A stretch of DNA of 42,470 nt. Origin: Lachnospiraceae bacterium (GTDB lineage Bacteria; Bacillota; Clostridia; Lachnospirales; Lachnospiraceae). Shown piece after piece: positions 1 through 22,599 of this stretch. The notes beneath the pieces are model-generated. The model searched no databases. It saw only the letters and a program-made list of their open reading frames with translations, and was not told the DNA's origin. The stretch lies in contig JAUNPZ010000013.1 of assembly GCA_030536455.1 (NCBI GenBank), positions 1,161-43,630 on the forward strand, in the 5' to 3' direction. Position 1 is the first letter of the stretch, and the number at the start of each line of letters is the position of its first letter. Position numbers and translations under genes: made by a program.

Positions 1-54
1 ATCCTCATCATACACATAATTCGCGCAGCTGTCACAACTGCTTTTTCCTGCCAT
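1..54 (-). CDS. Small Cys-rich protein, 5' fragment (DUF6472-like)
   Basis: Only the first 18 codons are inside the window; the gene runs off the left edge. Reading from an ATG at 54-52 gives a short peptide beginning MAGKSSCDSC, followed by NYVYDED. A Cys-x2-Cys pair followed by an acidic, aromatic stretch recalls the start of the small Cys-rich DUF6472 proteins of Lachnospiraceae; this is recognition from memory, not a search. A purine-rich GAGGAG lies upstream, though rather far from the start. It is on the same strand as the NUDIX gene, 82 nt downstream of it, so it could be the last gene of the same transcript. Function unknown. Confidence 0.5.
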   Translation of the reverse strand, partial: MAGKSSCDSCANYVYDED

Positions 55-136
55 ACAACCACCGTCTCCTCTCCCTATCTGAACGCTCCGGCTGTTCGAA
101 AAGCCGCCGCCCGCTCTGATTTCATGCATCCCGGCC

Positions 137-625
137 TCACCTCCGGAAATAGTTCTCCAAAAGCTGTATGGCCACGCTTCCCGGCCGCATCTGCCGGTGG
201 GCCTCCTCAAAGGTCAGCCATTCCGCCCGGTCCACTTCCCCGGAGATATGGAAGTCGGCCTTCTTCACATGGGCCTCAAAGGCCAGCATCAGCATATCCT
301 TCTTTTCAAAGTAATAGCTCCTGGTATAGTGGATTTCCTCCACATCCAGTCCCAGCTCCTCCTTGACCTCCCGTGCGGCGGTCTCCTCTGCCGTCTCCCC
401 GCATTTCACATATCCGGCAATGCACACATAAAACTGCTCCGAAACGTAGCCCTGGCGAATCAGCGCCGCCTCGTCAAACTCATTCACCACCAGCGTGATG
501 GTACAGGCATAGGGCATATCGAACCATGGCCGCCCGCAGTTCTCGCAGTAAGGCACCAGCCCCTCATCCCCGATTTCCCGCCTCTTAAGCTCCGCCCCGC
601 ACCGGGGGCAATGTATAAATTTCAT
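137..625 (-). CDS. NUDIX hydrolase with N-terminal zinc ribbon
   Basis: This 162-residue protein hydrolyses a nucleoside diphosphate linked to another group, by family. The N-terminus carries a four-cysteine zinc ribbon (C6, C9, C27, C30) as in NudC-like NADH pyrophosphatases. A complete NUDIX box occupies about residues 71-93 (G-x5-E-x7-REV-x-EE-x-GL), with the metal-binding REVKEE core intact. The protein is much shorter than E. coli NudC (about 257 aa) and lacks its N-terminal domain, so the substrate cannot be assigned; ADP-ribose, NADH or capped RNA are all possible. The ribosome site before the ATG at 625 is weak. The gene follows the TPR-protein gene after 59 nt on the same strand and may belong to that operon. 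Confidence 0.85.
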   Translation of the reverse strand: MKFIHCPRCGAELKRREIGDEGLVPYCENCGRPWFDMPYACTITLVVNEFDEAALIRQGYVSEQFYVCIAGYVKCGETAEETAAREVKEELGLDVEEIHYTRSYYFEKKDMLMLAFEAHVKKADFHISGEVDRAEWLTFEEAHRQMRPGSVAIQLLENYFRR

Positions 626-684
626 CTTCGTTCATGGCCTCTTTTCAATTTTTCATAAAGGATATAGGAACGCAGCGCTCAGTC

Positions 685-1500
685 CTACATCATCGACCGG
701 TATTCCTGCTTCCACTCTTTTACCAGTTCAGCCGCGCACTCCAGACGTTTTTCGGAATCCTGCTCGAACATCCGGTCAATCTTCTTTACCTCTTCCGACT
801 CCAGTCCCTTCTGTCTGGCCGCCGCTATCTTTTTCTCCCAGCTTCCCTGGCTGGTTCCGCTTAACAGGATCCGGTAGCGGTCCGATAGCGGAAGCGTGGG
901 GCAGAACGCCTTCAGACAGTAAATCCACTCCAGGATATCTTCATTTTTGCTGTCATAAAAATATGCCTTATCATAAGCGTGAAAGGCCTTCTCGAACTGG
1001 AACATCCTGGCATGACAGGCCCCCAGGCAGCACCAGATGCGGCTGAAAAAGCCGTCATCCACGGCCCCGTCCCTGGGCAGCTCCAGAAGCTTTTCATACA
1101 TGGGAATGGCCTTTCCATACTGCTTCTTTTCAAACAGATAATCCGCCCTGGCTTTTCGAAGCTCCGCCGGAGGCTTCTTCCGAAGCTGAATCAGCGTCTG
1201 GCGGTAGCGGTTCACCTCCGCCGCAGTGTAATAGCTGCATTCCGTCAGAAGCATCAGAAGCATGTTGTCAGGATTTTCCTCGCTCTTCTTCCAGTTTTCC
1301 AGTCTCCCGGCCAGGAATTCCATCCCCAAATCTTCCCGGATAAAATGAATCAGCCGCTCATCGATAAAATCATCCAGGGCCAGCAGCGGATTCTCATAGA
1401 TTACATAGCAAAGCTCCTGGGAGGAGTAAAGACGCACTCCCAGCTCCGGCACCTCAAAGGGATGCCTGACCGGTTCCATCCGGCACAATAGTAAACTCAT
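685..1500 (-). CDS. TPR-containing protein, partner of the Hsp70-like gene
   Basis: This 271-residue protein has no signal peptide or membrane segment and is probably cytosolic. The middle (about residues 115-195) shows two helix-turn-helix units with TPR-like spacing: an ALA/tyrosine pattern around YLFEKKQYGKAIPMYEKLL, then ACHARMFQFEKAFHAYDKA. The C-terminus is a charged helix. The start is taken at the ATG at 1500-1498, because it overlaps the TGA of the upstream gene (ATGA). This is a hallmark of translational coupling; a longer reading from 1527 would overlap that gene further. I do not recognise a named family. TPR proteins commonly bind Hsp70-type chaperones, and the gene just upstream looks Hsp70-like, so a co-chaperone role is an inference. 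Confidence 0.7.
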   Translation of the reverse strand: MSLLLCRMEPVRHPFEVPELGVRLYSSQELCYVIYENPLLALDDFIDERLIHFIREDLGMEFLAGRLENWKKSEENPDNMLLMLLTECSYYTAAEVNRYRQTLIQLRKKPPAELRKARADYLFEKKQYGKAIPMYEKLLELPRDGAVDDGFFSRIWCCLGACHARMFQFEKAFHAYDKAYFYDSKNEDILEWIYCLKAFCPTLPLSDRYRILLSGTSQGSWEKKIAAARQKGLESEEVKKIDRMFEQDSEKRLECAAELVKEWKQEYRSMM

Positions 1501-2720
1501 ATCGTTATCTCCCTGCGTATCACACAATCGGAGGCCGGAAACAGTTCTCCGAACCCTTTATCCTGAATCATCACCGCCATGGTATTTTCATTGACAAATC
1601 CCACCTTTAACTGAATCCGGGTGGTCTTATTGGGCCGCTCCGGGAATCCCTCCAGAGGCACGCGGACCTCCGTCCTTTTTCTGGAATCCAGCGGCTGAAT
1701 CTGAAAAACCAGCTCCTTCTGATTGTCCAGGATAAACTCCAGAGTGCTCTTTGCCTCGTACCAGCTGTCGCCGGATGCGGCAATCACAAGCTGGGTGGGC
1801 TTTTCATTATGCATCACTTCCAGGGAAACCGCGGATTTCAGCCTCCCCTCACAAATCATCACATAAGGGAATTCCGATTCCTCCGCCAGGTTGTCTTTGG
1901 CCTTGCAGGCCGCTCCCTTTACGAACAGATTGGATTCCCCGTACACCTTTCTCCGCCTGCAGATTAATTTCATAAAATCAACCGCCCAGGACGGCTTATC
2001 AAAGCCGCGTCCGGTCAGCAGGATGGAGGAAAACAGCTTTCTGGACAAAAGCCGCTCCCCGTGGGTGCACAGGATACCGTCCATCTTTCCGGCCCCGGTT
2101 TCCGTATCCAGGATATCCAGCCGGACCTTATCCTCCAGAATCTCATAGTCCGAAAGCACCGTGGACTGACGGATTCCTCTCTGAATCTTCATTTCATAGT
2201 AGCGCAGGCCGTTCTGGGACAATTCAAACAATCCCACCAGATTGGACCACACCTCTTTTTTCTGTCCCAGCACATAGTACAAAAAGCTTTCGCCATGGCT
2301 GATTACATGAAAATGGTTTCTGGGAATTCCCAGATAATCCGCGCAGTACAGCAGACAGTCCATGATCCGGCTGTCCACATCCGGCAGCGTCACCACCATC
2401 TGGCGGATCCGTTCGGTTCTGCATTCCTTCATCGGCTGCTGAAGCGCCAGCTTCAAAAAGCGCTCCAGAAGCTCCTGGCCGCTGTATGCGGTATCTCCTA
2501 TGGTGACTGCCCCATTCCTTCCGGCAAGGCTTACCAGCTTGTCCGCGATCACACCTTCTCCGGTCAGGTTCATGCCGTAGGCATCCTCGCCTGCGGCCCA
2601 CTGGTCCTCACTCTTCTTCCTGCAGATAACAGTCGGCAGGGACCATACCTTGTCATTTTCACTGCAGCTGATCTGTGTATAAGCATCACACAGGTCCAGC
2701 CCGATTACAAGTCCGTCCAT
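1497..2720 (-). CDS. Divergent Hsp70-like (ASKHA-fold) protein, DUF5716-like
   Basis: This 407-residue protein lines up by eye with an Hsp70 without its helical lid. Residues 4-14 (VIGLDLCDAYT) resemble the Hsp70 phosphate-1 loop. Residues 43-49 resemble the following GxxA segment. Residues 108-114 (QMVVTLP) with 130-150 resemble the strand and helix that read AVITVPA and INEPTAAALAYG in DnaK. Residues 234-246 with 262-272 resemble the adenosine loop and GAA motif. Residues 353-390 resemble the beta substrate-binding domain near its DKxxG end. The DLGGGT phosphate-2 loop is not kept (residues 162-170 read VGLFELSQN), so ATPase activity may be weak or lost. I believe this is the DUF5716 family, from memory. 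A good AGGGGG ribosome site precedes 2720. The gene lies 32 nt after the giant gene and overlaps the TPR gene. Confidence 0.7.
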   Translation of the reverse strand: MDGLVIGLDLCDAYTQISCSENDKVWSLPTVICRKKSEDQWAAGEDAYGMNLTGEGVIADKLVSLAGRNGAVTIGDTAYSGQELLERFLKLALQQPMKECRTERIRQMVVTLPDVDSRIMDCLLYCADYLGIPRNHFHVISHGESFLYYVLGQKKEVWSNLVGLFELSQNGLRYYEMKIQRGIRQSTVLSDYEILEDKVRLDILDTETGAGKMDGILCTHGERLLSRKLFSSILLTGRGFDKPSWAVDFMKLICRRRKVYGESNLFVKGAACKAKDNLAEESEFPYVMICEGRLKSAVSLEVMHNEKPTQLVIAASGDSWYEAKSTLEFILDNQKELVFQIQPLDSRKRTEVRVPLEGFPERPNKTTRIQLKVGFVNENTMAVMIQDKGFGELFPASDCVIRREITI

Positions 2721-2752
2721 AGACAGCCCCCTTACTCATTTGTTTCATATCA

Positions 2753-5700
2753 TTATGGCACCAGCGGGAATAATTCCTCCAGCGCCCCGTTCTTCATCAG
2801 GTAATCCTGCATACTCTTCTTTAATCCAGCTTCTTCTTTCATGCTCAGGCAGAGGCCCATGTCATTCAGGCTGGCAAAACGGCTTTCCTTCAGATTCTTT
2901 GAAAGCAGCTCGCAGCCAGCCGAACCTTCCTTCACAAGTACCGGCTCTCCCAGAGAGGTGCGGCAGTAAATCTGATATTCCAGAGTCTCCCCTTCAAACA
3001 ATACCTTCCGGCACACAAAGATTCCCTGGTAAATGCGGTGCAGCTCCTCCGGATGGAATTCCTCCTCGTCGGGAAGGATCCGGATCAGAAGCTCCGGCTT
3101 GGCATCCCGGCTGCCCTCATAGCAGACCATCGCCTTATCCAGCACATCCTGGGAAACCGGCACAAACCGGGACAGCTTTTTCGTATACGGAAAAATCAGC
3201 CCCTCCTCCGTCAGAAGATCCGTCATCCGCCCGCACAGGGCCGTCTGCTCTTCATCCAGATGACTGCACTCCGAATAATATTTGGTCAGCGCCAGCAGGT
3301 AGATCACCGGAACCTTTTCCAGCTCCTCTTCCTGATTCAAAAGCGCCTCCAGGTAGGCGAACACCTCTGCCTCCCCGGCCTCATGCTTCAGAAAATACCC
3401 CACTGTTTTCACAGTAAAATATGCCTTTATCACCGTCTCCCGCATCCGGTTTCTCCGGGAATAATGATGGAATACCTGGTCCAGATGGTCCAGGCTTCCG
3501 GAAAACATCATCTGGCACAGCAGCCGTTCATCTAAGTCGTAGGTTTCCACTCTGGCCGCCTTCCCCTGGGTCAGAAGCTTATACATCTGCTCCGAATTCC
3601 CATTGAAATGCTCGCACAGATAGTCCAGCAGCACGCTGTCCGCCTTTCCTCTGGCAAACACCTGCCAGGACAGCTTCAGAAGGAAATCATCCTCATCGAA
3701 AAGATTTTCCAGGATGGTCTTTCCGCACAGCTTCTGAAGCCTTAAGGTACTGATTCCCTCCCAGCCATAGGCCTTTAAGATGGCGTAGGCCTCCTCCAGA
3801 TAATTCCGGCTGATCAAGGTCTCACAGACATCCAGCCGCTCCTGGTGGTTCATCTCATCCACATCCAGCGTCAGAAGGTAGTCGCAGCCTCCCCGGTCGC
3901 CTTCCTCCTCTTCTGCCCTGGCCCGGTAATATTCAATCACTCTGGAAAGCAGCGCCTTCCGGTATAAGCCATTCAGCGGCAGCTCCTTCATGGCCCGCTC
4001 CAGAATCTGAACCTGGCCCTCCTCCAGCTCTTCTGACTGTCCGGCAATCCGGCGGCAGGCGGCAAGACACAGCTCCGGATGCTGCGGATACACCTCAAAG
4101 CAGCGCTTCTCCAGCTCCGATTTATCCATCACCGGTGTTTTCAGATACTGTACGTCCGCATAGCGGTTTCCAAATGCATCCTGGAACAGAATCACAGTCT
4201 TTTCTGAAAAAAGCGGCACATACGCCACACCGTCCGTCAGGAGGTATGCATCCTCCTTTGTCAGCTCTTCATATCGGACGATCACATACTTCATCTGCCG
4301 GTTCCGGCAGGAGATGCGATAGGAACGCAGCACAGCCGGCAGCACCCTGGCAATGGGCTGGTCAATCATTTCCTTAAAAATCATATGGTCATAAATCACC
4401 GCCAGACGGCTGTTGATTCTGGACTCAAAAAGCTGCTCCATGGCAAACTGCTCCATATCCCGCTCGTAAGCCTGGTAAAGCTTGGAGGAGGGATTCATAA
4501 ACAGCAGGATATTCTTATAAAGAACCGAACGGCTGTGGCGGTCCAGGTCATGCCCGTAGGAGAAATACAAAAGCACTTCCTTCGGCAGAAGGTGGCTGTA
4601 TTTCTTCGGAAGCGCATACAGATAATATTCATACAGTCTTGTCAGGCTGATTCCTTCCTCCAGGGCCGCTTCGTACCAGTGGAAATCCTCCGGCTTCCGG
4701 CATTCGCCCTTGATCATCATGCAGCAGACTGCTTCCAGGATCTCTTTTCTTGGATAGCTGTCATATAAGGCCGCTAAAATCCGGTGGAACAGGCGGCTGT
4801 AATGCTTCTCCAGGTTCGCCGCCGATGCGGTGCGCACGGCCATATCCTCTTCCATGATTTTATTTTTTGCGGCAAAATTTAAAACCTGAAGCAGGAATCC
4901 GTCCGTCTTCTGGAAAAATTCCGGGTGGTCCTTTACAATCTGATAGGCCTCCAGATACAGGAAGGGGCTGTGAAAGCCTTCCTCATAAAGCTTCTTCATA
5001 TCCATGAAAAGCGTTACCGGCGTTTCATATACGGTTTCATCCAGCTTCAGGCGGATGAAAAACAGCGCCGGATGGCGGCCTTCCGACATATATTTTCGAA
5101 CCAGACGAAGCAGAGATTCCTTCTGGCTGATATTCGGCTGGAGCTGCTGCTGCAGATACTGGTAAAAGCAGTATTCCTCAATCTGCTCTCTTCGTGACAT
5201 CAGGATGCTGTCCCGGCATTCATCCAGAACCAGAGCGGCCTGCTCCTTTTTGCCGGACTGAATCAGCGTCTCCGCCATCCACAGGGATGCCTTCACCTTA
5301 TCTCCGGCCGGAACATTTACCACATCCAGCTCCTTTACCATGCGGCTGCGCAGAAAGCTCATGTCAAGCTGGCCTTCGGCTCCATGCAGCCGAAGCTCCA
5401 TAAAACGGCCGAACGCCTTTCTGGCGCGGCGGGATTCCCTGCGGTTCTCATCCGTCTCCGGGTCACCGCTTACCTCAACCGGAATCCGGATGGATTCCTT
5501 GGCGGTGTTTAAGCAGATGCAGCCGAAATTTCTTCCCCGGTGCAGTCTGCCCGGAAGGATCCGGTACGGAATCCTTAAGACTCCGTCCTCGAAATCTCCG
5601 CTTCCGAAATGCCGCTTCGCCATCTCCAGAAACAGGCCGTCTGTCTGGACGTCCACGGTCACATAGCCCCAGCTCTGTTTCTTGATTTCAATCACATCTT

Positions 5701-6328
5701 CCACGGCCTGCTCCGGGCAGGCATAGGTTCTTAAGCCGGAGGCAATATCCAGGCTGACCGGTTTTTTTACATTTAAGGCCACCAGGAATTCTTCCAGCTG
5801 GTTTCCGCGGTCAGCATGCCCCTTCAGGCCATCGTAAAGGGCCCGCGGGTACATATCCTGCATGAATGGTGTTTCGGTAAAATCCTGATAATCAAACAGC
5901 CGCAGGGCGGTCTCCGGGTCGGCCTTGGCCAGCTTCGCAAAATCTTCGGCGGTTTTTAATCCGGCCAGGGTCTGACCGGAGATGCCAAGCTCTACGGTAA
6001 AGGAAAATGGGAGGGTCCTCTCCCCTCCGCTGGTTACCAGTTGGAATTCTCCCTGGATCTGGTCGCCGTTTTCCAGATGACTGGCATCCACCCGATAGGA
6101 AATCCGGTTCCGCAGGCCGCCGAAGGCGGGCGTGTCGATGGTAATTCTTGTATGATCGGTATAAACCAGGCCTTTGATGTGGAGATTATTTCCGCTGTTT
6201 ACCTGAAATTCACGGGAAATGGTTTTTCCGGCCTGGATTGTGTCTTGTATATTTTCTGGGAGCACCACGATTTGCGGGGTGTCCATGTCCAGAATGCCTC
6301 TGGCTAATCGATTGATTCGTTCCTTCAT
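2753..6328 (-). CDS. Very large solenoid protein with N-terminal beta domains, DUF5717-like
   Basis: The protein is 1191 residues long with no signal peptide and no clear membrane segment. About residues 20-110 are strand-rich and look like an Ig-like beta sandwich; a second such block lies near residues 215-285. The remainder, roughly 300-1150, is almost entirely amphipathic helices in pairs, rich in Leu, Tyr, Glu and Arg, as in TPR or other alpha-solenoid scaffolds. I believe it is the DUF5717 family, which I recall only as a family name. The start is the ATG at 6328, which has AGGTGA at a good distance. A longer in-frame reading to 6715 would translate the GC-rich repeat and is rejected. 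The gene is first in a row with the Hsp70-like and TPR genes. A scaffold or client-binding role is inference. Confidence 0.75.
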   Translation of the reverse strand: MKERINRLARGILDMDTPQIVVLPENIQDTIQAGKTISREFQVNSGNNLHIKGLVYTDHTRITIDTPAFGGLRNRISYRVDASHLENGDQIQGEFQLVTSGGERTLPFSFTVELGISGQTLAGLKTAEDFAKLAKADPETALRLFDYQDFTETPFMQDMYPRALYDGLKGHADRGNQLEEFLVALNVKKPVSLDIASGLRTYACPEQAVEDVIEIKKQSWGYVTVDVQTDGLFLEMAKRHFGSGDFEDGVLRIPYRILPGRLHRGRNFGCICLNTAKESIRIPVEVSGDPETDENRRESRRARKAFGRFMELRLHGAEGQLDMSFLRSRMVKELDVVNVPAGDKVKASLWMAETLIQSGKKEQAALVLDECRDSILMSRREQIEEYCFYQYLQQQLQPNISQKESLLRLVRKYMSEGRHPALFFIRLKLDETVYETPVTLFMDMKKLYEEGFHSPFLYLEAYQIVKDHPEFFQKTDGFLLQVLNFAAKNKIMEEDMAVRTASAANLEKHYSRLFHRILAALYDSYPRKEILEAVCCMMIKGECRKPEDFHWYEAALEEGISLTRLYEYYLYALPKKYSHLLPKEVLLYFSYGHDLDRHSRSVLYKNILLFMNPSSKLYQAYERDMEQFAMEQLFESRINSRLAVIYDHMIFKEMIDQPIARVLPAVLRSYRISCRNRQMKYVIVRYEELTKEDAYLLTDGVAYVPLFSEKTVILFQDAFGNRYADVQYLKTPVMDKSELEKRCFEVYPQHPELCLAACRRIAGQSEELEEGQVQILERAMKELPLNGLYRKALLSRVIEYYRARAEEEEGDRGGCDYLLTLDVDEMNHQERLDVCETLISRNYLEEAYAILKAYGWEGISTLRLQKLCGKTILENLFDEDDFLLKLSWQVFARGKADSVLLDYLCEHFNGNSEQMYKLLTQGKAARVETYDLDERLLCQMMFSGSLDHLDQVFHHYSRRNRMRETVIKAYFTVKTVGYFLKHEAGEAEVFAYLEALLNQEEELEKVPVIYLLALTKYYSECSHLDEEQTALCGRMTDLLTEEGLIFPYTKKLSRFVPVSQDVLDKAMVCYEGSRDAKPELLIRILPDEEEFHPEELHRIYQGIFVCRKVLFEGETLEYQIYCRTSLGEPVLVKEGSAGCELLSKNLKESRFASLNDMGLCLSMKEEAGLKKSMQDYLMKNGALEELFPLVP

Positions 6329-6365
6329 ATGTTTTTCACCTGAGATTTTTTTCTGTGTGGGGGAT

Positions 6366-6559
6366 GGGCTCGTGCGGGAGGATGGCTCGTGCGGAGCACT
6401 TCGCGGCAGGCTCGCGCCGGAGGGCGCATCGCGGAGGGCGGTGGGCTCGTGCGGAGCACTTCGCGGCAGGCTCGCGCCGGGGGCGCATCGCAGGGGGCGG
6501 TGGGCTCGTGCGGGGCACTTCGCGGCAGGCTCGCGCCGGGGGCGCATCGCAGGGGGCGG
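6366..6559. repeat. GC-rich tandem repeat, three units of about 57-60 bp
   Basis: Three near-identical units begin at 6384, 6444 and 6503, with a truncated copy of the unit start at 6367-6377. Each unit opens with GGCTCGTGCGG and ends near GCATCGC. Units differ by a few substitutions and single-base indels. The block is far richer in G+C than its surroundings (about three-quarters or more) and holds no stop codon for long stretches in several frames, which creates false open frames. Each unit contains short inverted repeats such as GCTC..GAGC and GCGCC..GGCGC. It lies inside the predicted untranslated leader of the giant gene. Confidence 0.9.
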
Positions 6560-6640
6560 ACTAGGGGACTGGCTCCTCGAATCCGCAGTGCGGCGCTCGA
6601 CTCCGCTTTGCTGCGTCTCGCTCACGGGCTTCGCCCTATG
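6560..6640. other. GC-rich flank of the tandem repeat, possible dispersed element
   Basis: This segment continues the GC-rich block but does not repeat the unit. It is studded with short repeats of CTCG and CGCT and ends abruptly at the A-rich stretch near 6640. Its wording recalls the intergenic GC-rich dispersed elements seen in some clostridial genomes, but that is an impression. No coding potential is supported. Confidence 0.4.
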
Positions 6641-6726
6641 AAAAAATACAAATTGAAATCTGCTTTTGTGCAAGCACAACGCATCTTTCATTTTGTCTTT
6701 TTTCGCACTGCTCATTGCTTTCGTGG

Positions 6727-6755
6727 ATTATACCACATTTTCCCTTGATTTAAAA
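6727..6755 (-). promoter_or_regulatory. Predicted promoter of the giant/Hsp70-like/TPR genes
   Basis: On the minus strand a perfect TATAAT sits at 6732-6727. With a 17-nt spacer the -35 position reads TTTTAA, a weak match. Transcription would start near 6720, giving a leader of about 390 nt that includes the tandem repeat before the ATG at 6328. Confidence 0.45.
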
Positions 6756-6773
6756 GGGTTAAGTTGTTATCAT
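6745..6773 (+). promoter_or_regulatory. Predicted promoter of the DUF4364 operon
   Basis: TTGATT at 6745-6750 and TATCAT at 6768-6773 are separated by exactly 17 nt. Transcription from about 6780 leaves a leader of some 50 nt for a start at 6830, but would leave none for an ATG at 6782. It overlaps the divergent minus-strand promoter. Confidence 0.5.
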
Positions 6774-6829
6774 ATAGGTGAATGGAAAAAATAGTTTCAT
6801 ATCAAAACTTTAGAAATCAGGTAGGGGAT

Positions 6830-7372
6830 ATGTTATCAGAGCCGATTACGCTTTATAAATTAATGAATCTTTACATGCTGAAGCAGGTGAATTTTCCGCT
6901 GACGAATGCGCAGCTTACGAATTTTTTTCTGGAGCATGATTATACGACGTATTTTACTTTGCAGCAGGCTCTGAATGAGCTTTTGGATACGGAATTGATC
7001 CGGAAGGAGTCGCATCATAATAGTACGCAGTATGAGATTACGGATGAGGGGATTAATACGCTCAGCTTCTTCGTGAATAAGATTCCTCCGGCGATTACGG
7101 AGGATATTGACCGGTATTTGAAGGAGAATAAGTTCCGGCTGCGGAATGAGGTGGGGACGATTGCGGATTTTTATAAATCCACGAATCAGGATTATGTCGT
7201 ACATTGTGAGGTGCGGGAGGATAAGGTGCCTTTGATTGAGCTGAATCTTTCGGTGCCGGATAAGGACCAGGCAGAGTATATGTGCAGCAACTGGCGAAAA
7301 CGGAGCCAGGAGATTTATGCATTTGCTATGAAAGCGCTGATGAGCGGGGAGGAGTATATCCATGAGAAATGA
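6830..7372 (+). CDS. DUF4364 family protein (winged-helix-like)
   Basis: This 180-residue protein is recognised from the opening EPITLYKLMNLYML and the segment NYFTLQQALNEL-like, typical of DUF4364. Its N-terminal half is predicted to fold as a winged helix, as in PadR/MarR-type regulators. The C-terminal half (about residues 90-180) is a mixed alpha/beta domain. It could be a transcription regulator, but no ligand or target is known to me. The start is placed at 6830 because family members begin close to the LYKL helix and because the predicted promoter at 6745-6773 makes an ATG at 6782 leaderless. The alternative start at 6782 adds 16 residues and has AGGTG only one base away. The stop overlaps the next gene by 11 nt. 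Confidence 0.8.
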   Translation: MLSEPITLYKLMNLYMLKQVNFPLTNAQLTNFFLEHDYTTYFTLQQALNELLDTELIRKESHHNSTQYEITDEGINTLSFFVNKIPPAITEDIDRYLKENKFRLRNEVGTIADFYKSTNQDYVVHCEVREDKVPLIELNLSVPDKDQAEYMCSNWRKRSQEIYAFAMKALMSGEEYIHEK

Positions 7373-7787
7373 AAAAATGAACAGGCAGTGCCCGTTAAAA
7401 GCCTTAAAAAAGAAGCTTTTCCATGGGAAGGAGCCGGTAAAAAGGAGTCCGCTTCAGGAAGCGGTTTTTACGATACAGCAAAAGGTGAATCGCCTGGAAA
7501 AGAAACAGAAGCACTGGAAGCTTTATTTTTATCTTACGGTGCTTCTGCCTGTTTTCATCGTGATTCTGACCATTCAGGCAGCGAGAACCTACGTCCGCAT
7601 CAAGCTGCGTGATGTGGGAACGAACGCACCGTCGGATTTTTCTGATGCATCGGTTAAAAAGATTCCGACAGCGGTTCCAGCCGAAAAAATCGAACTGGAA
7701 AAGGTGGAACCGGAAACCGTTATTCCGGAAACGGTATCAATCTCCTATTCTGCAGATAATACACGCGAACATGGAGACGCATCATGA
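7362..7787 (+). CDS. Unknown single-pass membrane protein
   Basis: This 141-residue protein is not recognised. Residues 1-50 are strongly basic (many Lys and Arg) and helical, about 51-73 form one hydrophobic membrane helix, and the C-terminal 65 residues are acidic, rich in Glu, Pro and Val, with a repeated pattern of the type EKVEPETVIPETV. The basic side should stay in the cytosol and the acidic tail outside. A clear GGGGAGGAG ribosome site lies 8 nt before the ATG at 7362, inside the end of the DUF4364 gene. The stop overlaps the next start as ATGA, so three genes are translationally linked. Confidence 0.6.
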   Translation: MRNEKMNRQCPLKALKKKLFHGKEPVKRSPLQEAVFTIQQKVNRLEKKQKHWKLYFYLTVLLPVFIVILTIQAARTYVRIKLRDVGTNAPSDFSDASVKKIPTAVPAEKIELEKVEPETVIPETVSISYSADNTREHGDAS

Positions 7788-11770: not shown

Positions 11771-13693
11771 TCAGCCGATTTTCAGCTTCTTAAGCAGCTT
11801 CTCCGGCGGCAGTCCGTTCCGGTCCCAGCCTCTGGCCTGATAATAAATCTTCTTCATCTTCTTTAACGGCACTTTGGAATCCGGACTGTCCGGGTCCTGC
11901 AGCTCCGCCACCAGGCGCTTCGGAAGCACATCCCGGCTGGCATCCACGCCAAACCGGCGGTTTAACTCCCGCTCCAGATTATATCCGCGCTCACCGCATC
12001 GGATATAAGTGCCGAAGGTCATCTTCATCCCGGTTACATACTCAAAGGCCTTCGTATGATGGAAAACCGGCAGATGGAAGCAGGCAATCTCCGGATATTT
12101 ATTAATAAGACGGACAACCGGGCCGCAGTGGGGAAGCACCAGGTTGGCCAGCTTCGTGTACCAGCTGTTCGGGTGCTTTAAGAGCGGGGAAGGGAAGAAT
12201 GCATAGCTGGTAAACAGGCACTGTCCCGTTGCGGAAATCATCTCCATCAAATCCTGGAACAGCATCGTAAGGTCCGCTTTCCCGTGATAGGTCGTGGGAT
12301 TCACCGAAAGGCCCAGACCCTCCAGGATAACCAGATAACCGCCGTTCAGATGGCAGCCGCCCCGGTTGCTGACCGCATAACCCAGTCCCATCCCGGCAGC
12401 CTTTCTCGGCTCATAGGCGGCAAGCTCCATTCCCTTGACCTGGATGGCAAAATCCTTTCCACCGTATTTTTCTGAGAGCCGCCGGCTGCCCTGGCCAAGC
12501 TCTTTTCCGATTCCTCTTCCATAGGCAATCTCCTCAAACAGCCTGGACAGATTTTCCGTACTGGAGAACTCCAGTCCGTTTTTCCAGATTCCCTTCTCAT
12601 TTGCCTCCATCGCATAGGCAATGGTATTGGCACAGGATATGGTATCCATTCCCAGCTCATCCAGCTCATAGTTCCACCGAAAAACCGCCTCCAGGTCATG
12701 GTTCAGAATTCCGCTTCCAAGAAGCACCAGGGTTTCCAGCTCCGGTCCCTTTACCGGCTTTCCTTCCACCTCAACCGTCCGCGCGCACTTGATCGGGCAG
12801 GTCAGGCAGCCCTTGTTGACGATGTTATATTTTTCTGCCAGCACCTCTCCGCTGATTTTCTCAAAGTCCTCATACCGGCCTCCGGAATAATTTTTTGTAG
12901 CCAGAATGCCCCTCATCTGCATGGCGCTGACCAGCCCGGCTGTTCCAAATCTGGGAAGCTGGTTTCCGGTAAGCGGATGGCTTTTCAGATAGCGGAACCA
13001 CTTCTGGGTGTGCTTTACCATCTTCTCCTTCTCCATCACCTTCACTTCCTGGTTCCCGCTGGCCACCACGGCCTTCAGGTTCATCCAGCCCATCACCGCG
13101 CCGGTGCCGCCGCGCCCGGAGACACGTTCATTGGAGATGATGCAGGAATACAGGACCTGATGCTCTCCTGCCGGACCGATGCAGATTTTTCCGTTCTTCT
13201 GCAGCCTTCCGTTCGGCAGCTTCAGCTTCTCATCCAGGTATTCCTGTGTCTCGGACGTCTTCATCCCCCACAATTCTCCCGCCTCATGGAACAGCACCTT
13301 ATCCTTCTTAATCTCAATCCAGTGGGGCGTCTCAAAATGCCCCTGCAGGATCAGTCCGTCCAGCCCGGCCCTCTTCAGATAATATCCGAACTTTCCGCCG
13401 CAGTTGGAGGAGGTAATGTACCCGGTCTGCGGGGATAAGGTGGAGATATTAAATCGGCTGGAGCTTGGCGCCCCGGAACCGGTAAGCGGTCCCGTTGTCA
13501 CCACCAGCATGTTTTCATCGGAAAATGCAGTTTCATTTCCCTTCAGGTTGTCATACAGAATCTTTGCCGCCATGGTTTTTCCGCCGATAAACAGCCTCCG
13601 CTCTTCATCGGAAAACGGATACTCCTCTGCCTTCTGCTCCGTCAGGTTGATGCGCAGAACCTTTCCCATGTATCCGCCGTATCTGGTTGACAT
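11771..13693 (-). CDS. Aldehyde:ferredoxin oxidoreductase, tungsten-dependent
   Basis: The 640-residue protein has the length and motifs of the AOR family, which interconverts aldehydes and carboxylic acids using ferredoxin and a bis-pterin tungsten site. The N-terminal domain opens with YGGYMGKVLRINL and continues with FIGGKTMAAK and TGPLTGSGAPSSSRF. The pterin-binding loop GRGGTGAVMG lies at about 193-202. The 4Fe-4S cluster ligands are C296, C299, C303 and, by position, C492. DELGMDTIS at 345-353 is the second pterin contact. The ATG at 13693 follows GGGGTGA, which overlaps the stop of the upstream moeA-like gene, so translation is probably coupled. A GTG reading from 13702 is less likely. 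Family members act on small, aromatic or broad substrates; the natural one is unknown. Confidence 0.95.
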   Translation of the reverse strand: MSTRYGGYMGKVLRINLTEQKAEEYPFSDEERRLFIGGKTMAAKILYDNLKGNETAFSDENMLVVTTGPLTGSGAPSSSRFNISTLSPQTGYITSSNCGGKFGYYLKRAGLDGLILQGHFETPHWIEIKKDKVLFHEAGELWGMKTSETQEYLDEKLKLPNGRLQKNGKICIGPAGEHQVLYSCIISNERVSGRGGTGAVMGWMNLKAVVASGNQEVKVMEKEKMVKHTQKWFRYLKSHPLTGNQLPRFGTAGLVSAMQMRGILATKNYSGGRYEDFEKISGEVLAEKYNIVNKGCLTCPIKCARTVEVEGKPVKGPELETLVLLGSGILNHDLEAVFRWNYELDELGMDTISCANTIAYAMEANEKGIWKNGLEFSSTENLSRLFEEIAYGRGIGKELGQGSRRLSEKYGGKDFAIQVKGMELAAYEPRKAAGMGLGYAVSNRGGCHLNGGYLVILEGLGLSVNPTTYHGKADLTMLFQDLMEMISATGQCLFTSYAFFPSPLLKHPNSWYTKLANLVLPHCGPVVRLINKYPEIACFHLPVFHHTKAFEYVTGMKMTFGTYIRCGERGYNLERELNRRFGVDASRDVLPKRLVAELQDPDSPDSKVPLKKMKKIYYQARGWDRNGLPPEKLLKKLKIG

Positions 13694-13698
13694 GGTTC

Positions 13699-15714
13699 TC
13701 ACCCCATTTCTGTTTCTTTGATTCTTCGGATTTCCCCCAGATTCTCATAGGTATATCCGCCCAGCTCCTCCAGCTTCCTCCGGAATGCATCACTTTTCAA
13801 GACACGGAGAAAGATCTGCATCGCGGGAAGCTGCAGAAAATCTTCATAAGTAACAAAATCATACTCCTCGCAGGCAATATCGATAAAATCAAGCCCCAGC
13901 GCCTTTGCGCAGGAATACACACCCATCCCCGCATCTGCATTGTCCTGTTCTACCGCGACGGCCACTGCCATATGGGTTGCCGCCTCGTGGGAATAGCCGG
14001 TAATCGCTTCCGCCGGAATGCCAAGCTGCTTCCTCTTTGCGTCAAACAGCACCCTGGTTCCGGCTCCCCGCTGGCGGTTGATATAGCGGATTCCTCCCGC
14101 AAGGTCTTCTATGGTGCGGATGCCCAGCGGATTGCCTTTTTTCACAATCAGCCCCTGTCTGCGCCCCACTCCTTTTATCAGCACCACACCGCCGGACACG
14201 CCAAACAGTTCCCGGATGATTTCCACATTATAGGTTCCGGTCCGCTCATCCAGCAGATGAGCCGGCGCCAGGTGGGCTTCTCTTTTCTTCAGCGCAAGCA
14301 GACCGGACATGGAGCCCACATGGGTGGAGGACAGCCAGGCCGCCTCCCCCTGCTCCAGCATCAGGTCGTTCAGCACATCCAGGATCAGGTCATGGCTGCC
14401 GATGGAAACCAGGGTATTCTCCATCTGGTCCTCCTCCCGCATCAGGCGCACCGTTACCGGCTCATGGGCCGGAAGTCCTTCCACATTCTGCGGAATCACG
14501 CAGAATCCGTCCGCCTGCACCAGAGACATGGCGGCCCCGGCTCCCCGGCTTAACGGAGCGGCAGACCACCTTCCGTCCACCCTCCCAAGCTTTACCCGGA
14601 CATACTCCTCGTACTTTAAGCTGGACATCACGGTTTTCGTGAGAACCGCCTGCACCGTCTTCTCCGGCTTCTGCCTTAGGTGGGTATATCGGTTCATCAC
14701 CGGGACAACAAACTCCATAAAGGTCAGATAGGAGGCAACCGGATATCCCGGCAGACCGATGACCGGCTTTCCCTGAACGATGCCCAGGATCACCGGCTTT
14801 CCCGGCTTCACCGCCACCCCATGGACAACCACCCGGCCCAGAGCGGCGACTGCCTGCGCCGTGTAATCCTCCCGGCCCGCACTGGACCCGGCATTTACCA
14901 GGACCACATCGCATCTGCGGACCGCATCCAGAATGGTTTCCTGCAGGAGAGCCTGGTCATCCTTCACGATCGGATACCGGACCGGTATGCCGTCCTGCTC
15001 CGTCACCAGATTCTCAAACATCCGGGAGTTGGTTTCGATGATTTTTCCCTCCCCAGGACCGGACTCTGCCGCTGCCTCGTCCGCCATTTCCTCTGCCTCC
15101 ACCATCTCATCTCCGGTGGGCAGGATGGCGACGGACGGTCTTTTGAATACCGCGACCTCCTGCACGCCCACTGACAGCAGCACCGCCACATCGATGGCCG
15201 TAATCCGGTGCCTGGAGGGCAGAACCATCTCCTGGGTTACGATATCCTCCCCGACTGCCCTCACATGGGCAAACGGATGGGTCGGCGCGATAATCCGGTA
15301 CCCGTCCCCGTCTTCAATCAAATCCTCCGCCATGATAACGGCGTCAAATGGTTCCCGGATCGGGTCTCCAGTATCCACCTCGATATAATCGGTTCCCGGC
15401 TTCAGGTGCACCGGATGGATTTCCGAAGCCTCCCTTGTCCGGCTGCTTACAACTGCAATGCCGTCCATCGCGCAGGAATTATAAGAAGGGCTGGAATATC
15501 TGGCGCAGACCGCCTCACTGGTCACACGCCGGAAGCTTTCTGCCGTAGGAATCCGTTCACTCCGGTTCCAGGAACGGATGCCGCTGTCTGCATCCCGGTC
15601 CCCTCTCCGGTCTCCATCCGCTTCGCCGGATTCCTTTTCCAATTGTTCAAAAAACCGATGCAGCGCCTCTGCCTTCGGCTGAATATCCAGATATAAATTT
15701 CGTCTCGTCACCAT
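13699..15714 (-). CDS. MoeA-like molybdopterin metal transferase fused to a periplasmic-binding-protein-like domain
   Basis: The protein has 671 residues. About residues 1-415 are a MoeA fold: the YNSCAMDGIAV segment, PTGDEM, NAGSSAGREDYT and GLPGYPVASY are all present. MoeA inserts molybdate or tungstate into adenylylated molybdopterin. About 425-671 form a PBP-like domain (Pfam PBP_like, as I recall), with RYINRQRGAGTR and YSHEAATHMAVAVAV typical of the same domain found fused to ModE-type regulators. It has no signal peptide, so it would act in the cytosol, perhaps binding the oxyanion or cofactor. A charged Glu/Asp/Arg insert lies near residues 30-55. The gene overlaps the first moeA gene by 7 nt. 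Two moeA genes in one operon suggest metal specialisation, an inference. Confidence 0.9.
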   Translation of the reverse strand: MVTRRNLYLDIQPKAEALHRFFEQLEKESGEADGDRRGDRDADSGIRSWNRSERIPTAESFRRVTSEAVCARYSSPSYNSCAMDGIAVVSSRTREASEIHPVHLKPGTDYIEVDTGDPIREPFDAVIMAEDLIEDGDGYRIIAPTHPFAHVRAVGEDIVTQEMVLPSRHRITAIDVAVLLSVGVQEVAVFKRPSVAILPTGDEMVEAEEMADEAAAESGPGEGKIIETNSRMFENLVTEQDGIPVRYPIVKDDQALLQETILDAVRRCDVVLVNAGSSAGREDYTAQAVAALGRVVVHGVAVKPGKPVILGIVQGKPVIGLPGYPVASYLTFMEFVVPVMNRYTHLRQKPEKTVQAVLTKTVMSSLKYEEYVRVKLGRVDGRWSAAPLSRGAGAAMSLVQADGFCVIPQNVEGLPAHEPVTVRLMREEDQMENTLVSIGSHDLILDVLNDLMLEQGEAAWLSSTHVGSMSGLLALKKREAHLAPAHLLDERTGTYNVEIIRELFGVSGGVVLIKGVGRRQGLIVKKGNPLGIRTIEDLAGGIRYINRQRGAGTRVLFDAKRKQLGIPAEAITGYSHEAATHMAVAVAVEQDNADAGMGVYSCAKALGLDFIDIACEEYDFVTYEDFLQLPAMQIFLRVLKSDAFRRKLEELGGYTYENLGEIRRIKETEMG

Positions 15715-17015
15715 AGCTCCACATAAACCCTCTCGCCTTTTTTCAGTCCCTCCCGGTTTCTCGGAATCAGCAGAAATCCGTCTGCCCGGGACAGGGATGA
15801 GATGCTTCCGGATTTGGTATACACCGGACAGGCGCCATATAACACTCCGGCTCCCATCTCTTCCTCCTCTTCCCTTACCTCCTGCAGCCGCACCAGCAGG
15901 CAGGTTTCTCTTCCCTGATTGCTGGAAACGTTTTCCTGCATCACAGCAGGAAGCAGCCGTTTCTTTGGAAGCCCAAGCTTCTTTTCCTGCCAGTCACATA
16001 AAAGCAGCCGGAACATCAGCCAGGCAGCCAGAGGATGGCCCGGAAGCCCGGCAAGAATGGTCTGCCTCTTCTGGTCGCAGGCAAGAATCGTCGGCTTCCC
16101 CGGCTTGATGGAGATTCCATGGGTCAATATCGTTCCCGCAGCCTGCTCCAGCGCGGATAATGAATAATCCTTTTCCCCCTTCGAGCTTCCTCCGGACAGC
16201 ACCACGATGTCGCTCTGCTCACTGCCCCGAAGCACAGCCTGGCAAATGTCTGATTCCACATCGCCGGTACGGATGCATTCCCGGACCAGAAAGCCGTTCT
16301 CCTCCGCCAGTGCGGCCAGGGACCAGGAATTAATGTCCCGGATTCTGGATTCCGGCATGCTCCCATTTTCCTCCGTCTGCTCCTTTGTCGTCCCATCTTC
16401 TTCCATTCCGCCTTCCTCCGGGTCCGTCAGTTCATCCCCTGTCGAGATAATCGTAACGGTGAATGGTTCCGCCACCAGCACCTTTTTTATCCCCAGGGAA
16501 GCCAGCATCCCGATTTCCCGTGATGTAATCTTCTGGCCCCTTCGAATCAGGCGCTCCCCCTTCCGGATATCCTCTCCAATCTGCGCGATATTTTCTCCCG
16601 CGCTTACGCTTTTGTTTACAAGAATCTTATCCGCCGCATAAGCCTCACAGTATTCCGCCATCACCACCGCAGCTGCGCCCTCCGGAATCATGGAACCGGT
16701 CTGAACCTGGGCCGCCTGTCCGGACTCCAGCGGAATCCGGGCCTTTTTTTCGATGGGAATCCGCTCTGCCACCTCCAGAAAAACCGGATTGGACTCGCCT
16801 GCTCCAAAGCTGTCCTCTGCAAGAACAGCAAAGCCGTCCACCGTAGAACGGCGGAATGACGGCACATTTTCCCCGGCATATACATCACAGGCGCAGACCC
16901 GGTTCCGGGCCTCCCGGCTCTTCACCCACTTCACCTGTACAGGAAATGACTGCGTATGCCTTTCCAGCTTCTCCCGCGCCTCCTGCAGGGTATCGGTATG
17001 CAATAGCTTCATCAT
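15708..17015 (-). CDS. moeA: MoeA, molybdopterin molybdenum/tungsten transferase
   Basis: The 435-residue protein is a single-unit MoeA. Motifs are the VPSFRRSTVDGFAV segment near residue 50, TGSMIPEGAAAVV near 107, STGDEL near 190, SGGSSKGEKDYS near 272 and GLPGHPLAAW near 330. It catalyses metal insertion into MPT-AMP, the last step of cofactor formation. An acidic loop of about 30 residues rich in Glu interrupts the fold just after STGDEL. The start ATG at 17015 overlaps the stop of the ABC ATPase gene as ATGATG, so the two are coupled. Transcribed together with tungstate uptake genes, it probably serves the tungsten cofactor of the nearby oxidoreductase. Confidence 0.93.
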   Translation of the reverse strand: MMKLLHTDTLQEAREKLERHTQSFPVQVKWVKSREARNRVCACDVYAGENVPSFRRSTVDGFAVLAEDSFGAGESNPVFLEVAERIPIEKKARIPLESGQAAQVQTGSMIPEGAAAVVMAEYCEAYAADKILVNKSVSAGENIAQIGEDIRKGERLIRRGQKITSREIGMLASLGIKKVLVAEPFTVTIISTGDELTDPEEGGMEEDGTTKEQTEENGSMPESRIRDINSWSLAALAEENGFLVRECIRTGDVESDICQAVLRGSEQSDIVVLSGGSSKGEKDYSLSALEQAAGTILTHGISIKPGKPTILACDQKRQTILAGLPGHPLAAWLMFRLLLCDWQEKKLGLPKKRLLPAVMQENVSSNQGRETCLLVRLQEVREEEEEMGAGVLYGACPVYTKSGSISSLSRADGFLLIPRNREGLKKGERVYVELW

Positions 17016-17719
17016 TCTATCAGCAATTCTCCTTTTATAAATTTTCCGGCCAGCGGATGACCGGGACTTTCAAAAAATGCTTCCGTCTCCTGTCCTTCCA
17101 CGACCCGCCCCTCATGTAAAAGCACCACATAATCGGCAAGCCTTCTGGCCTGCGCCAGATTATGGGTCACCAGAAGAATCTTGGTCTGTCCTTCCCTTCG
17201 GATTTTTAACAGAAGCTTCTCAATCTCCTGGGTGGTATACGAGTCGATGCTGGCGCATGGTTCATCCAGAAGAAGCAGCTTCGGGCAAAAGGAAAGCGCT
17301 CTGGCCAGCGAAACCTTCTGAGCCTCGCCCAGAGAAAGCCGGTCCGCCCGCTTGTCCAGCAGCGGCTCCAGCCCTAATTCCCGGCTCAGCCGCTCCACCG
17401 TCTCCCGGATTTCCCCGGACGGCCATTTCCGGATTTTCAGCGGACAGGCAATATTCCTTCTCACCGTGGTATCCAGAAGATAGGGCTGCTGAAACACCAT
17501 GGTCACATCCTTCTGCGGAATCCTCCGGCTTTTGTCATACCAGATTTCTCCCTCCTCTGCCTCCAGAAGACCGGCCGCCACCTGCAGAAGCGTGGATTTC
17601 CCGGCTCCGTTCGGACCGACCACCGCCGTAACCGGATGCTCCGGAATGACCAGACGGCCGATGTCCAGCGCCAGACGGCCCTGGTAATATTTCTTCACCT
17701 GCTTGAATTCCAGCTGCAT
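17012..17719 (-). CDS. tupC: Tungstate ABC transporter ATP-binding protein
   Basis: The 235-residue ATPase has Walker A GPNGAGKST at 35-43, a Q-loop within VFQQPYLLD, signature LSLGEAQKVSLARA, Walker B LLLLDEP and the switch His in LLVTHN. It lacks the C-terminal TOBE/Mop domain usual in molybdate ModC, which fits Tup-type tungstate importers. It energises uptake through the permease encoded upstream. The 51-nt gap to tupB contains an 8-bp GC hairpin at 17736-17754 that could temper expression. Assignment to tungstate rests on the neighbouring binding protein and tungstoenzyme. Confidence 0.9.
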   Translation of the reverse strand: MQLEFKQVKKYYQGRLALDIGRLVIPEHPVTAVVGPNGAGKSTLLQVAAGLLEAEEGEIWYDKSRRIPQKDVTMVFQQPYLLDTTVRRNIACPLKIRKWPSGEIRETVERLSRELGLEPLLDKRADRLSLGEAQKVSLARALSFCPKLLLLDEPCASIDSYTTQEIEKLLLKIRREGQTKILLVTHNLAQARRLADYVVLLHEGRVVEGQETEAFFESPGHPLAGKFIKGELLIE

Positions 17720-17770
17720 CTTCTACCTCTTTTCCTGCGTGGCCGCGCCACGCACCCTTCCTGTCCGCAG

Positions 17771-18466
17771 TCAGTCCCGTCGGCCTCTCTGGCAGCCGTA
17801 GAGCAGCGTATTGATCAGGAATGACAGAGCCAGCAGGATCAGCCCCACTGCCACCGCCCGTTCAAAATTCCCCATTCCCTTTAGCTGGGAGATATAGGTG
17901 GTCATCACACGGGTTTTCCCTTCGATATTGCCGCCCACGATCATCACCGCTCCAACCTCGGAGATTCCTCTGGAAAACCCGGAAATCACCGCCGTCATCA
18001 GCCCATACCGCAGTTCAAACAGGAACAAAAGCGCCGTGTCCAGCCGCCCCGCTCCAAGGGTTCTGGCCAGACGGGAGATCTTCTCCTCCTTTTCCTGCGC
18101 CGCATTTATGGTAAGGCCAAGAAGAATCGGGAGAATCAACAGCGTCTGCGCGATTATCATCGCCGCCGGCGTATAATTCAGGCGGAGAAAGCCCAGCGGC
18201 CCCCGGCGCATCAGCACCACATAAACCAGAAGCCCTCCAAGAACCGGAGGCATGCCCATCAGCGTATAGATGACACGCATCAGCACATGCTTTCCCCGAA
18301 AGGAATGTCCTGCAATCCAGATTCCGGCGGGAACTGCCCCGGCTCCCGCCAGGAAAAGAGCGCTTAAGGAAACCCACAGCGACAGTCCTACTACTTCAAA
18401 CACCTCCGCATCCAGGGAAATGATCAGAAAAAATGCCTCCCGGATGCCCTTTCCTATCAGATCCAT
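17771..18466 (-). CDS. tupB: Tungstate ABC transporter permease
   Basis: The 231-residue protein has five or six membrane helices and a typical inner-membrane permease EAA loop: residues around 120-165 with SRLARTLGAGRLDTALLF, where the ATPase docks. The GMPPVLGGLLVYVVLMRRGPLG segment is characteristic of TupB/WtpB-like permeases. The short length matches TupB. It follows the binding-protein gene after 6 nt. It forms the membrane channel for tungstate taken from the lipoprotein. Confidence 0.92.
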   Translation of the reverse strand: MDLIGKGIREAFFLIISLDAEVFEVVGLSLWVSLSALFLAGAGAVPAGIWIAGHSFRGKHVLMRVIYTLMGMPPVLGGLLVYVVLMRRGPLGFLRLNYTPAAMIIAQTLLILPILLGLTINAAQEKEEKISRLARTLGAGRLDTALLFLFELRYGLMTAVISGFSRGISEVGAVMIVGGNIEGKTRVMTTYISQLKGMGNFERAVAVGLILLALSFLINTLLYGCQRGRRD

Positions 18467-19515: not shown

Positions 19516-20130
19516 CTATTCTGCTTCTCCTTCGTCTGCCGCCGCAGGCGATGCCTCCCGCTCAATCAGGTCCAGGATTTCGTCCCGTCCCTGCTTCGTC
19601 TCCGCTGAGAATGGAATCAGGATATCCCCCTTCTCCATGCCAAGCCCCTCTCTTACAAGCTTCACCTGCCTGGCAATCTGGCTCCGCTTCAGCTTATCCA
19701 TCTTGGTCGCGATGATGACCGGACGGTAGCCGTTATAGATAATCCACTCGTACATGGTCTTATCGTTGGCAGACGGCTCGTGGCGGATATCCACCAGCAG
19801 GAATACCATCTTTAAGACCGGGGATTTCCTCAGATAATTTTCAATCATCTTTCCCCACTTGGCCTTGGCCTCCTGGGATACCTTGGCATAGCCGTAGCCC
19901 GGCAGGTCCACGAAATACAGCGCATCGTTGATGTTGTAGAAATTGATGGTCTGGGTCTTGCCAGGCTGGGAGGAGGTTCTGGCAAGAGATTTCCGGTTCA
20001 TCAGGGCATTGATCATCGAGGATTTGCCCACATTGGACTTTCCGGCAAATGCAAATTCCGGCAGGGTATTCGCCGGAAGCTTGCTGGTGATGCCGCATAC
20101 CGTCTCCAAATTTACATTTTTAATTATCAT
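19516..20130 (-). CDS. engB: Ribosome biogenesis GTPase EngB/YsxC
   Basis: The 204-residue protein is the TRAFAC-class GTPase needed for large-subunit assembly. G1 reads GKSNVGKSS near residue 30, G3 DLPGYG near 75, and G4 TKMDK near 142. The length matches the family. The start at 20130 has AGAAGGAG at a good distance and overlaps the end of lon by 11 nt. The lon-engB order is common in Firmicutes. A terminator follows. Confidence 0.97.
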   Translation of the reverse strand: MIIKNVNLETVCGITSKLPANTLPEFAFAGKSNVGKSSMINALMNRKSLARTSSQPGKTQTINFYNINDALYFVDLPGYGYAKVSQEAKAKWGKMIENYLRKSPVLKMVFLLVDIRHEPSANDKTMYEWIIYNGYRPVIIATKMDKLKRSQIARQVKLVREGLGMEKGDILIPFSAETKQGRDEILDLIEREASPAAADEGEAE

Positions 20131-22459: not shown

Positions 22460-22472
22460 CATTTCCTCCATA

Positions 22473-22498
22473 CGATGTGCGGATGCTGCTGCACATCG
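22473..22498 (-). promoter_or_regulatory. Inverted repeat immediately before lon
   Basis: CGATGTGC, 10 nt, GCACATCG forms a perfect 8-bp stem ending just upstream of the lon ribosome site. It could be an operator or a hairpin in the leader that gates translation. No CIRCE or CtsR box was recognised nearby. Confidence 0.45.
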
Positions 22499-22543
22499 GT
22501 ATCTCTTTCTGTTCTCTATCTTAAAAAAATCCTGCTTTCTCAA

Positions 22544-22592: not shown

Positions 22593-22599
22593 TAAATGT

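Follow-up and report, generated by a model that had tools for sequence, protein, structure and literature searches.

A remote and apparently lidless Hsp70 relative in a conserved three-gene unit of the Lachnospiraceae

What is encoded by a compact group of three genes, one of which reads like an Hsp70 chaperone that has lost its catalytic loops and its lid? The question is raised by a stretch of 42,470 nucleotides from a Lachnospiraceae bacterium (GCA_030536455.1, contig JAUNPZ010000013.1, positions 1,161 to 43,630 of the forward strand), hereafter called the window, whose own numbering is used throughout. An initial annotation, made from the letters alone, had described the group as one unit for a giant solenoid protein, an Hsp70-like protein and a tetratricopeptide repeat (TPR) protein. 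We find that the three genes, two of which belong to the Pfam families DUF5717 and DUF5716, form one conserved unit that is confined to the Lachnospiraceae in the samples made, and that DUF5716 is, judged by profile similarity over the nucleotide-binding domain and the beta substrate-binding domain (SBD-beta), a remote relative of Hsp70. The reading frames and their spacing, with 32 nucleotides between the end of DUF5717 and the start of DUF5716 and an ATGA overlap after it, are as that annotation had given them:

2753..6328, minus strand: DUF5717 gene, 1191 amino acids, within an open frame extending to 6715
1497..2720, minus strand: DUF5716 gene, 407 amino acids, from the list of open reading frames
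685..1500, minus strand: TPR protein gene, 271 amino acids, with a possible alternative TTG start at 1527
1497..1500, minus strand: ATGA, overlap of the DUF5716 stop and the TPR start, read from the sequence

Both DUF proteins are members of their Pfam families far over the cut-offs. DUF5716 matches PF18980 (2e-98, 329.5 bits against a gathering threshold of 34.7), and DUF5717 matches PF18984 (5.7e-274, 911.6 bits, residues 1-877) and PF18983 (2e-80, 270.7 bits, residues 880-1187; gathering threshold 25). These entries carry no function, and the earlier remark that the proteins are known only under DUF names is true of the Pfam description for two of the three. Because the PF18980 model spans only residues 107-407, the phosphate-1 half of DUF5716 lies outside it. 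We aligned 52 of 62 DUF5716 frames, omitting four gene fusions described below and L054, L065, L069, L080, L081 and L087 (near-duplicates or long-start frames); the gene of L077, masked by a frame on the opposite strand, is likewise absent from the alignment. In an hhalign comparison with a DnaK profile of 13 rows, this alignment matched over 386 columns, beginning at the phosphate-1 loop and continuing until the beta substrate-binding part ends (probability 97, E 8.3e-11). The score of 86.6 compares with 23.4 for a reversed profile and at most 22.8 for 40 column shuffles, and another operon family gave a probability of 0.1 percent; the proposed Hsp70 ancestry is thus borne out by similarity that spans 378-386 columns and exceeds the null controls. 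When the 52-member profile was run against the PDB, DnaK chains came first (E 2.4e-7 for the whole chain).

Which parts of the chaperone have been kept? The corresponding features of DUF5716 are the following, the fractions giving conservation in the 52 aligned members:

1497..2720, minus strand: Hsp70-derived core, a predicted relative of the nucleotide-binding domain plus a beta substrate-binding part without lid (profile, model and segment lengths)
2670..2714, minus strand: phosphate-1-like loop, residues 3-17 (G7 52/52, D9 45/52)
2193..2231, minus strand: degenerate phosphate-2 position, residues 164-176 (Asp 30/52, Glu 7/52)
2001..2027, minus strand: adenosine-loop-like strand, residues 232-240 (G237 52/52, F240 48/52; placed by hand)
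1908..1916, minus strand: GAA motif, residues 269-271 (G269 52/52, A270 50/52)
1503..1862, minus strand: beta substrate-binding-like part, about residues 287-406 (strands of the model; alignment to DnaK through 469)

Together with a TVPA/connect-1 segment at residues 108-150, the loop at 3-17, the strand at 232-240 (where hhalign leaves a gap at the DnaK adenosine loop), the GAA motif and a beta part reaching to about residue 391 stand where they had been placed before. The beta part carries a DxGFG motif of D387 (51/52), G389 (52/52) and G391 (51/52). The elements associated with hydrolysis, whose loss the initial annotation had suspected, are gone. At the GTT of the phosphate-1 loop the residues are replaced, with the Gly kept in 12/52; at the phosphate-2 loop DLGGGT, of which the D, GGG and T are invariant in 13/13 rows of the DnaK family, the DnaK residue occurs in at most 7/52 members at any GGGT column; and the column aligned with the catalytic lysine, which we take to be K70 of Escherichia coli DnaK, holds L, F, V, Y or I in 46/52 and a gap in 4. 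The glutamate of the NEPT motif is not aligned to a Glu.

Segment lengths point the same way. The landmark spacing of DUF5716 is close to that of DnaK in three segments (168.5 vs 163, 31 vs 33 and 118 vs 118 residues), the first shrinking to as few as 104 residues in some members, whose N-terminal half is incomplete. From the phosphate-2 Asp to the adenosine Gly, in contrast, DUF5716 measures 71 residues (60-78, n=52) and DnaK 143 (134-143, n=13), about 72 more, and the tail after DxGxG has a median of 20 residues (19-33) vs 157 (32-168) in the DnaK family. The first deletion would correspond in place and size to subdomain IIB, which we assign from the general anatomy of Hsp70, and the second to the lid and tail; the absence of DLGGGT and lid, as first described, is thus seen in both alignment columns and segment lengths. 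An AlphaFold2 model of the window protein, built with the 52 rows, has a mean predicted local distance difference test score (pLDDT) of 94.9 and a predicted template modelling score (pTM) of 0.91. The order of its strands and helices, compared by eye with the Hsp70 topology, agrees with that of a nucleotide-binding domain of the Hsp70 type and a beta sandwich after it, and the model has few structural elements at the position of IIB, so that the check for an actin/Hsp70 fold proposed with the initial annotation is answered in part. On the whole, its structural inference was largely right: DUF5716 shares with DnaK and Hsp70 (PF00012) the motif order, most segment lengths, the adenosine loop, GAA and the beta substrate-binding part, but lacks GGGT, GTT, K70, some 72 residues at the place of IIB, and a lid or tail. 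Other divergent Hsp70 relatives were encountered in passing: locus L128 encodes a protein of the same family (open frame of 953 amino acids) whose Hsp70 matches cover profile positions 58-267 and 306-388, while L125 and L126 contain additional divergent paralogs of DnaK.

Do the three genes belong together? We compared 63 loci, namely 59 usable fetched neighbourhoods (about 11-20 kb; L088, of which only 100 bases were available, is excluded), L002-L004 and the window; they were picked from the best-scoring matches, from a class sample plus mixed matches, and from the weakest matches, and are partly non-independent, the window and L089 representing one genus and L062, L080 and L081 another. A six-frame profile search found DUF5717, DUF5716 and TPR following one another on the same strand in 62/63 loci, the sole exception (L103) being a contig that ends before DUF5717. 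Counted from the first possible start codons, the gap between DUF5717 and DUF5716 has a median of 16 nucleotides (61 pairs, range -20 to 142) and that between DUF5716 and the TPR gene a median of -4 (57 pairs, range -85 to 38). Flanking genes, whose names were read by eye, vary by lineage and include valS, purine genes, an ATP-binding cassette (ABC) transporter, cobD/hisC-like genes and rarA. Since the surroundings change and the order is kept, the unit holds together as such; its homologs are not found apart, in keeping with the single unit first proposed. In four loci (L097, L099, L101 and L109), DUF5716 and the TPR protein are even one open frame of 684-723 amino acids, in each of which one can see both the DxGFG end and the motif with which the TPR protein starts. 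These natural fusions are better evidence for a partnership of the two proteins than the argument by which they had been linked initially, that TPR proteins dock on Hsp70 chaperones. What is bound in such docking is the EEVD tail at the C terminus of eukaryotic Hsp70s, so that the link is unsupported as stated, DUF5716 having neither lid nor tail; with TPR co-chaperones such as Sti1/Hop and FKBP51 the unit has TPR repeats in common, but its Hsp70-like partner lacks an EEVD-type tail. Selection on the three genes is purifying, with ratios of nonsynonymous to synonymous change (dN/dS) of 0.10-0.17 between the window and L002 and L089, values that are only approximate because dS exceeds 1.

How widely is the unit distributed? 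Of 293 genomes sampled across the class, the same 13 exceeded the cut-off for DUF5716 and for DUF5717, all of them Lachnospiraceae, and a phylum sample searched with DUF5716 only gave matches in 5/348, again all Lachnospiraceae; none of 14 named control genomes matched. Within a family sample of 250 genomes from 249 genera, DUF5716 was found in 247, DUF5717 in 248 and both together in 247. Genomes G312 and G365 yielded neither, and G371 yielded no DUF5716 and two DUF5717 matches; a search with the TPR alignment found no match in G365 and G371 and, in G312, only TPR matches of a generic kind (best E 2.4e-4). DUF5716 gave a single match in 244 of the 247 genomes and two in the remaining three, both partial in one of these (G523). 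The carriage by Lachnospiraceae first suggested can thus be sharpened to a restriction to this family in the samples made. That almost every sampled genus carries the unit, and that a genome of only some 1.5 Mb (G466) does so too, argues for a role in a basic process. Outside the family, a DUF5716 match below the cut-off in G275 is probably due to chance, because its frame, read by eye, resembles a MarR-like regulator plus an acetyltransferase-like part, and G101, which has a sub-cut-off DUF5717 match, showed no match to the TPR alignment.

The two partner proteins were examined in alignments of 49 (DUF5717) and 47 (TPR) of 62 frames. DUF5717 begins with two mutually homologous domains (probability 95.5, E 1.6e-8, 84 columns):

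5981..6235, minus strand: DUF5717 beta domain 1, residues 32-116 (profile-profile match to domain 2)
5453..5719, minus strand: DUF5717 beta domain 2, residues 204-292 (profile-profile match to domain 1)

The "beta" nature of the two domains is our inference from sequence, and by their pattern they are probably immunoglobulin-like. Of the beta domains and alpha-solenoid originally ascribed to this 1191-residue protein, the former would be these two homologous domains, and for the latter the long region gave only weak matches to TPR proteins and helical-repeat chains (best E 0.003). We rejected tandem TPR repeats in DUF5717, since these matches are weak and self-alignment gave the two N-terminal domains instead. 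The C-terminal domain is conserved. The TPR protein matches PF07719 (TPR_2; 5.3e-7, 29.7 bits against a gathering threshold of 27) and combines a conserved N-terminal domain bearing the motif YSxEELCY with TPR repeats around residues 113-187; TPR structures were matched by its profile over the repeats only, leaving the N-terminal domain uncovered. A kinship of this domain with residues 115-188 of DUF5717 was considered and discarded (probability 1.6, not significant). By hydropathy over 19 residues, no transmembrane segment was found in 52 DUF5716, 49 DUF5717 and 47 TPR aligned members, and DUF5717 is probably a giant cytosolic protein.

A fourth gene, of about 395 codons, directly follows the TPR gene in 30/63 loci (for example L052:7651-8847). 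Its product has a central, strongly hydrophobic stretch in all 29 members aligned from the 30 loci, probably with coiled coils on both sides by our own reading, and no Pfam match above the cut-off was obtained for four of these proteins. A search of 38 genomes, most of them chosen because their locus lacks the gene, gave a strong match in 5, always at the operon, matches only near E 1e-4 in 2, and none in 31, including the genome of the window. The core of the unit thus consists of three genes, to which the membrane protein is added as an accessory part.

How might these proteins work together? On balance, we favour the idea that an Hsp70-derived subunit that no longer cycles and a TPR adaptor sit on a giant scaffold, as one cytosolic complex belonging to the core of the Lachnospiraceae. 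We infer that the three proteins form a complex, that DUF5716 does not hydrolyse ATP and binds clients weakly, and that the fourth protein provides a membrane link. We envision a scenario whereby DUF5716 would descend from an Hsp70 that abandoned its ATP-driven cycle, losing the loops and side chains around the gamma-phosphate, the IIB-sized stretch and the lid, and would have been retained as a module of fixed shape with a lidless beta substrate-binding part. The TPR protein would be its permanent holder, much as Ssz1 is held by its partner, and would have become fused to it in some genera. This pair would ride on DUF5717, a scaffold of 1200 residues in which two putative beta domains would be joined to a long stretch that is probably helical, while the lidless beta part might allow weak and reversible binding of a peptide or of a segment of the scaffold itself. 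The assembly could then serve a housekeeping process, be it as adaptor or as holdase, and the protein with the membrane segment would probably tether it to the membrane in about half of the loci studied.

The closest precedent would be Ssz1 of the yeast ribosome-associated complex. The PDB chain 4gni ("Putative heat shock protein"), which we take to be Ssz1, was matched by the DUF5716 profile only at E 0.24. Ssz1 binds ATP with little or no hydrolysis, possesses SBD-beta without SBD-alpha and is stably associated with Zuo1 (PMC8476630), and its lidless substrate-binding domain binds nascent chains weakly (PMC7083937). DUF5716 is likewise an Hsp70 derivative that by sequence has SBD-beta and no lid, and its being non-cycling and held by a partner is our proposal. 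Unlike the ATP-binding Ssz1, it is bacterial, has a TPR protein as its partner, judged by gene order and fusion, and lacks the IIB-sized stretch, so that its reduction would exceed that of Ssz1.

Several observations weigh against our proposal. The partner of Ssz1 is a J-domain protein, whereas the conserved neighbours in the unit lack a Pfam J domain. As to ancestry, the hhalign probability is that of a single pair of profiles and does not come from a database search, the best single stretch in the PDB search reached only E 0.0018, and the Pfam Hsp70 model (PF00012) matched 0/52 members at E 0.01. As to the loss of the cycle, E144, conserved in 45/52 members, stands near the place of the NEPT glutamate, and with the conserved D9 and GxGF loop a nucleotide could still be bound. 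The short tail, finally, is shared by some rows of the DnaK family (minimum 32 residues).

What else could the unit be? Unlikely, in our view, though the best of the alternatives, is that DUF5716 is an actin-like anchor akin to FtsA, PilM or MreB, serving in the cytoskeleton or in cell division as an adaptor that the fourth protein would tether to the membrane. Hsp70 and FtsA, PilM and MreB belong to the same fold superfamily, and both the membrane protein encoded next door in 30/63 loci and a weak match to an MreB model (E 0.19) would suit such a role. In the comparison, which was made with MreB, the resemblance is confined to the phosphate-1 region, however, covering 97 columns at probability 30 as opposed to 386 columns at probability 97 for DnaK (with profiles of 6 and 13 rows, respectively), and so falls short of full length; moreover, the alignment to DnaK runs on through DxGxG, and the beta substrate-binding parts of the two agree in length (118 vs 118). 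Doubtful to a slightly greater degree is that DUF5716 works as an ATP-driven chaperone with a remodelled active site and the TPR protein as co-chaperone. The kept phosphate-1 Asp (45/52), adenosine Gly (52/52) and GAA, as well as the strong purifying selection, would be expected of such an enzyme, but GGGT, GTT and K70 are lost, the phosphate-2 Asp persists in only 30/52, the IIB-sized stretch and the lid are gone, and Pfam detects a J domain neither in the three proteins of the window nor in four products of the fourth gene.

Improbable, and placed a little lower again, is that the three proteins are merely transcribed together and share no complex. Their trees have only 15 to 19/35 splits in common, but this comparison lacks a control gene and is made over large distances (means of 2.7-3.0 changes per site), and four fusions, the overlap of stop and start, and an order kept over 62 loci in changing surroundings speak against this reading. 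Mirror-tree distance correlations of 0.68-0.80 (38 loci), likewise obtained without a control gene, were not used as evidence. A mobile or defence system is close to refuted: four unannotated faecal records filed as 'Bacteriophage sp.' (MT835988.1, MT835486.1, MT837190.1 and MT835719.1, possibly bacterial DNA filed as phage) carry a DUF5717 relative, and weak PADLOC matches (TPR protein E 0.0024, fourth protein E 0.015) and one PHROG match (E 0.028) exist, but DUF5716 and DUF5717 have no PADLOC or PHROG match at E 0.1, DUF5717 has no plasmid match, the unit is near-universal and almost always single-copy in one family, and housekeeping genes such as valS, read by eye, adjoin it in some loci.

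Upstream of the unit, the window offers two further features:

6727..6754, minus strand: promoter-like site with extended -10 (consensus match only)
6384..6559, no strand assigned: 3.0 copies of a GC-rich 59-bp repeat (96 percent match), within the leader

The repeat stands between the promoter-like site and the start of DUF5717, and a second site was not found in the source genome, which is 84 percent complete. Promoter-like consensus sites numbered 7 in positions 1-7400, where 6.1 are expected. Among the neighbouring genes, a NUDIX hydrolase resembling NAD(+) diphosphatase (137-625, minus strand) follows the TPR gene in 4/63 loci (the window, L002, L003 and L089), and a DUF4364 gene (6782-7372, plus strand), divergent from the unit, lies near it in 14/63. 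Farther away, positions 11771-18466 look like a tungsten/molybdenum enzyme cluster, where genes for an aldehyde ferredoxin oxidoreductase, a pair of MoeA-type genes, one of which includes a PBP-like domain, and components of an ABC transporter (the ATPase recognised by eye) stand in a row, and Lon protease adjoins ClpX at 20120-23907.

As far as our search of the open literature reached, which left most subscription journals and preprints outside, the unit is unstudied: DUF5716 appeared only in unrelated work (a motif call on human MAX), DUF5717 was not mentioned, and no report combined Lachnospiraceae with Hsp70-like and tetratricopeptide proteins or concerned lidless or pseudo-ATPase Hsp70-like proteins. 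Among the matches listed for signature proteins, conserved signatures, and essential genes or transposon libraries, no report of the unit was found.

Lachnospiraceae are among the commonest gut bacteria, and a unit of about 5.6 kb that is present in 247/250 genomes of the family, and in none sampled outside it, points to a core process peculiar to them; it could also serve as a marker of the family. From a more general perspective, it represents a natural test of which parts of an Hsp70 can go while the remainder stays under selection. Tentatively, and with a little less conviction than we attach to the complex itself, we suggest that the unit may be a family-defining machine of the Lachnospiraceae, in which an Hsp70 without subdomain IIB, catalytic loops and lid has been turned into a fixed subunit that serves a core process. 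If this were true, other Clostridia would perform that process differently or lack it, and Hsp70 would be shown to be reducible to a nucleotide-free scaffold.

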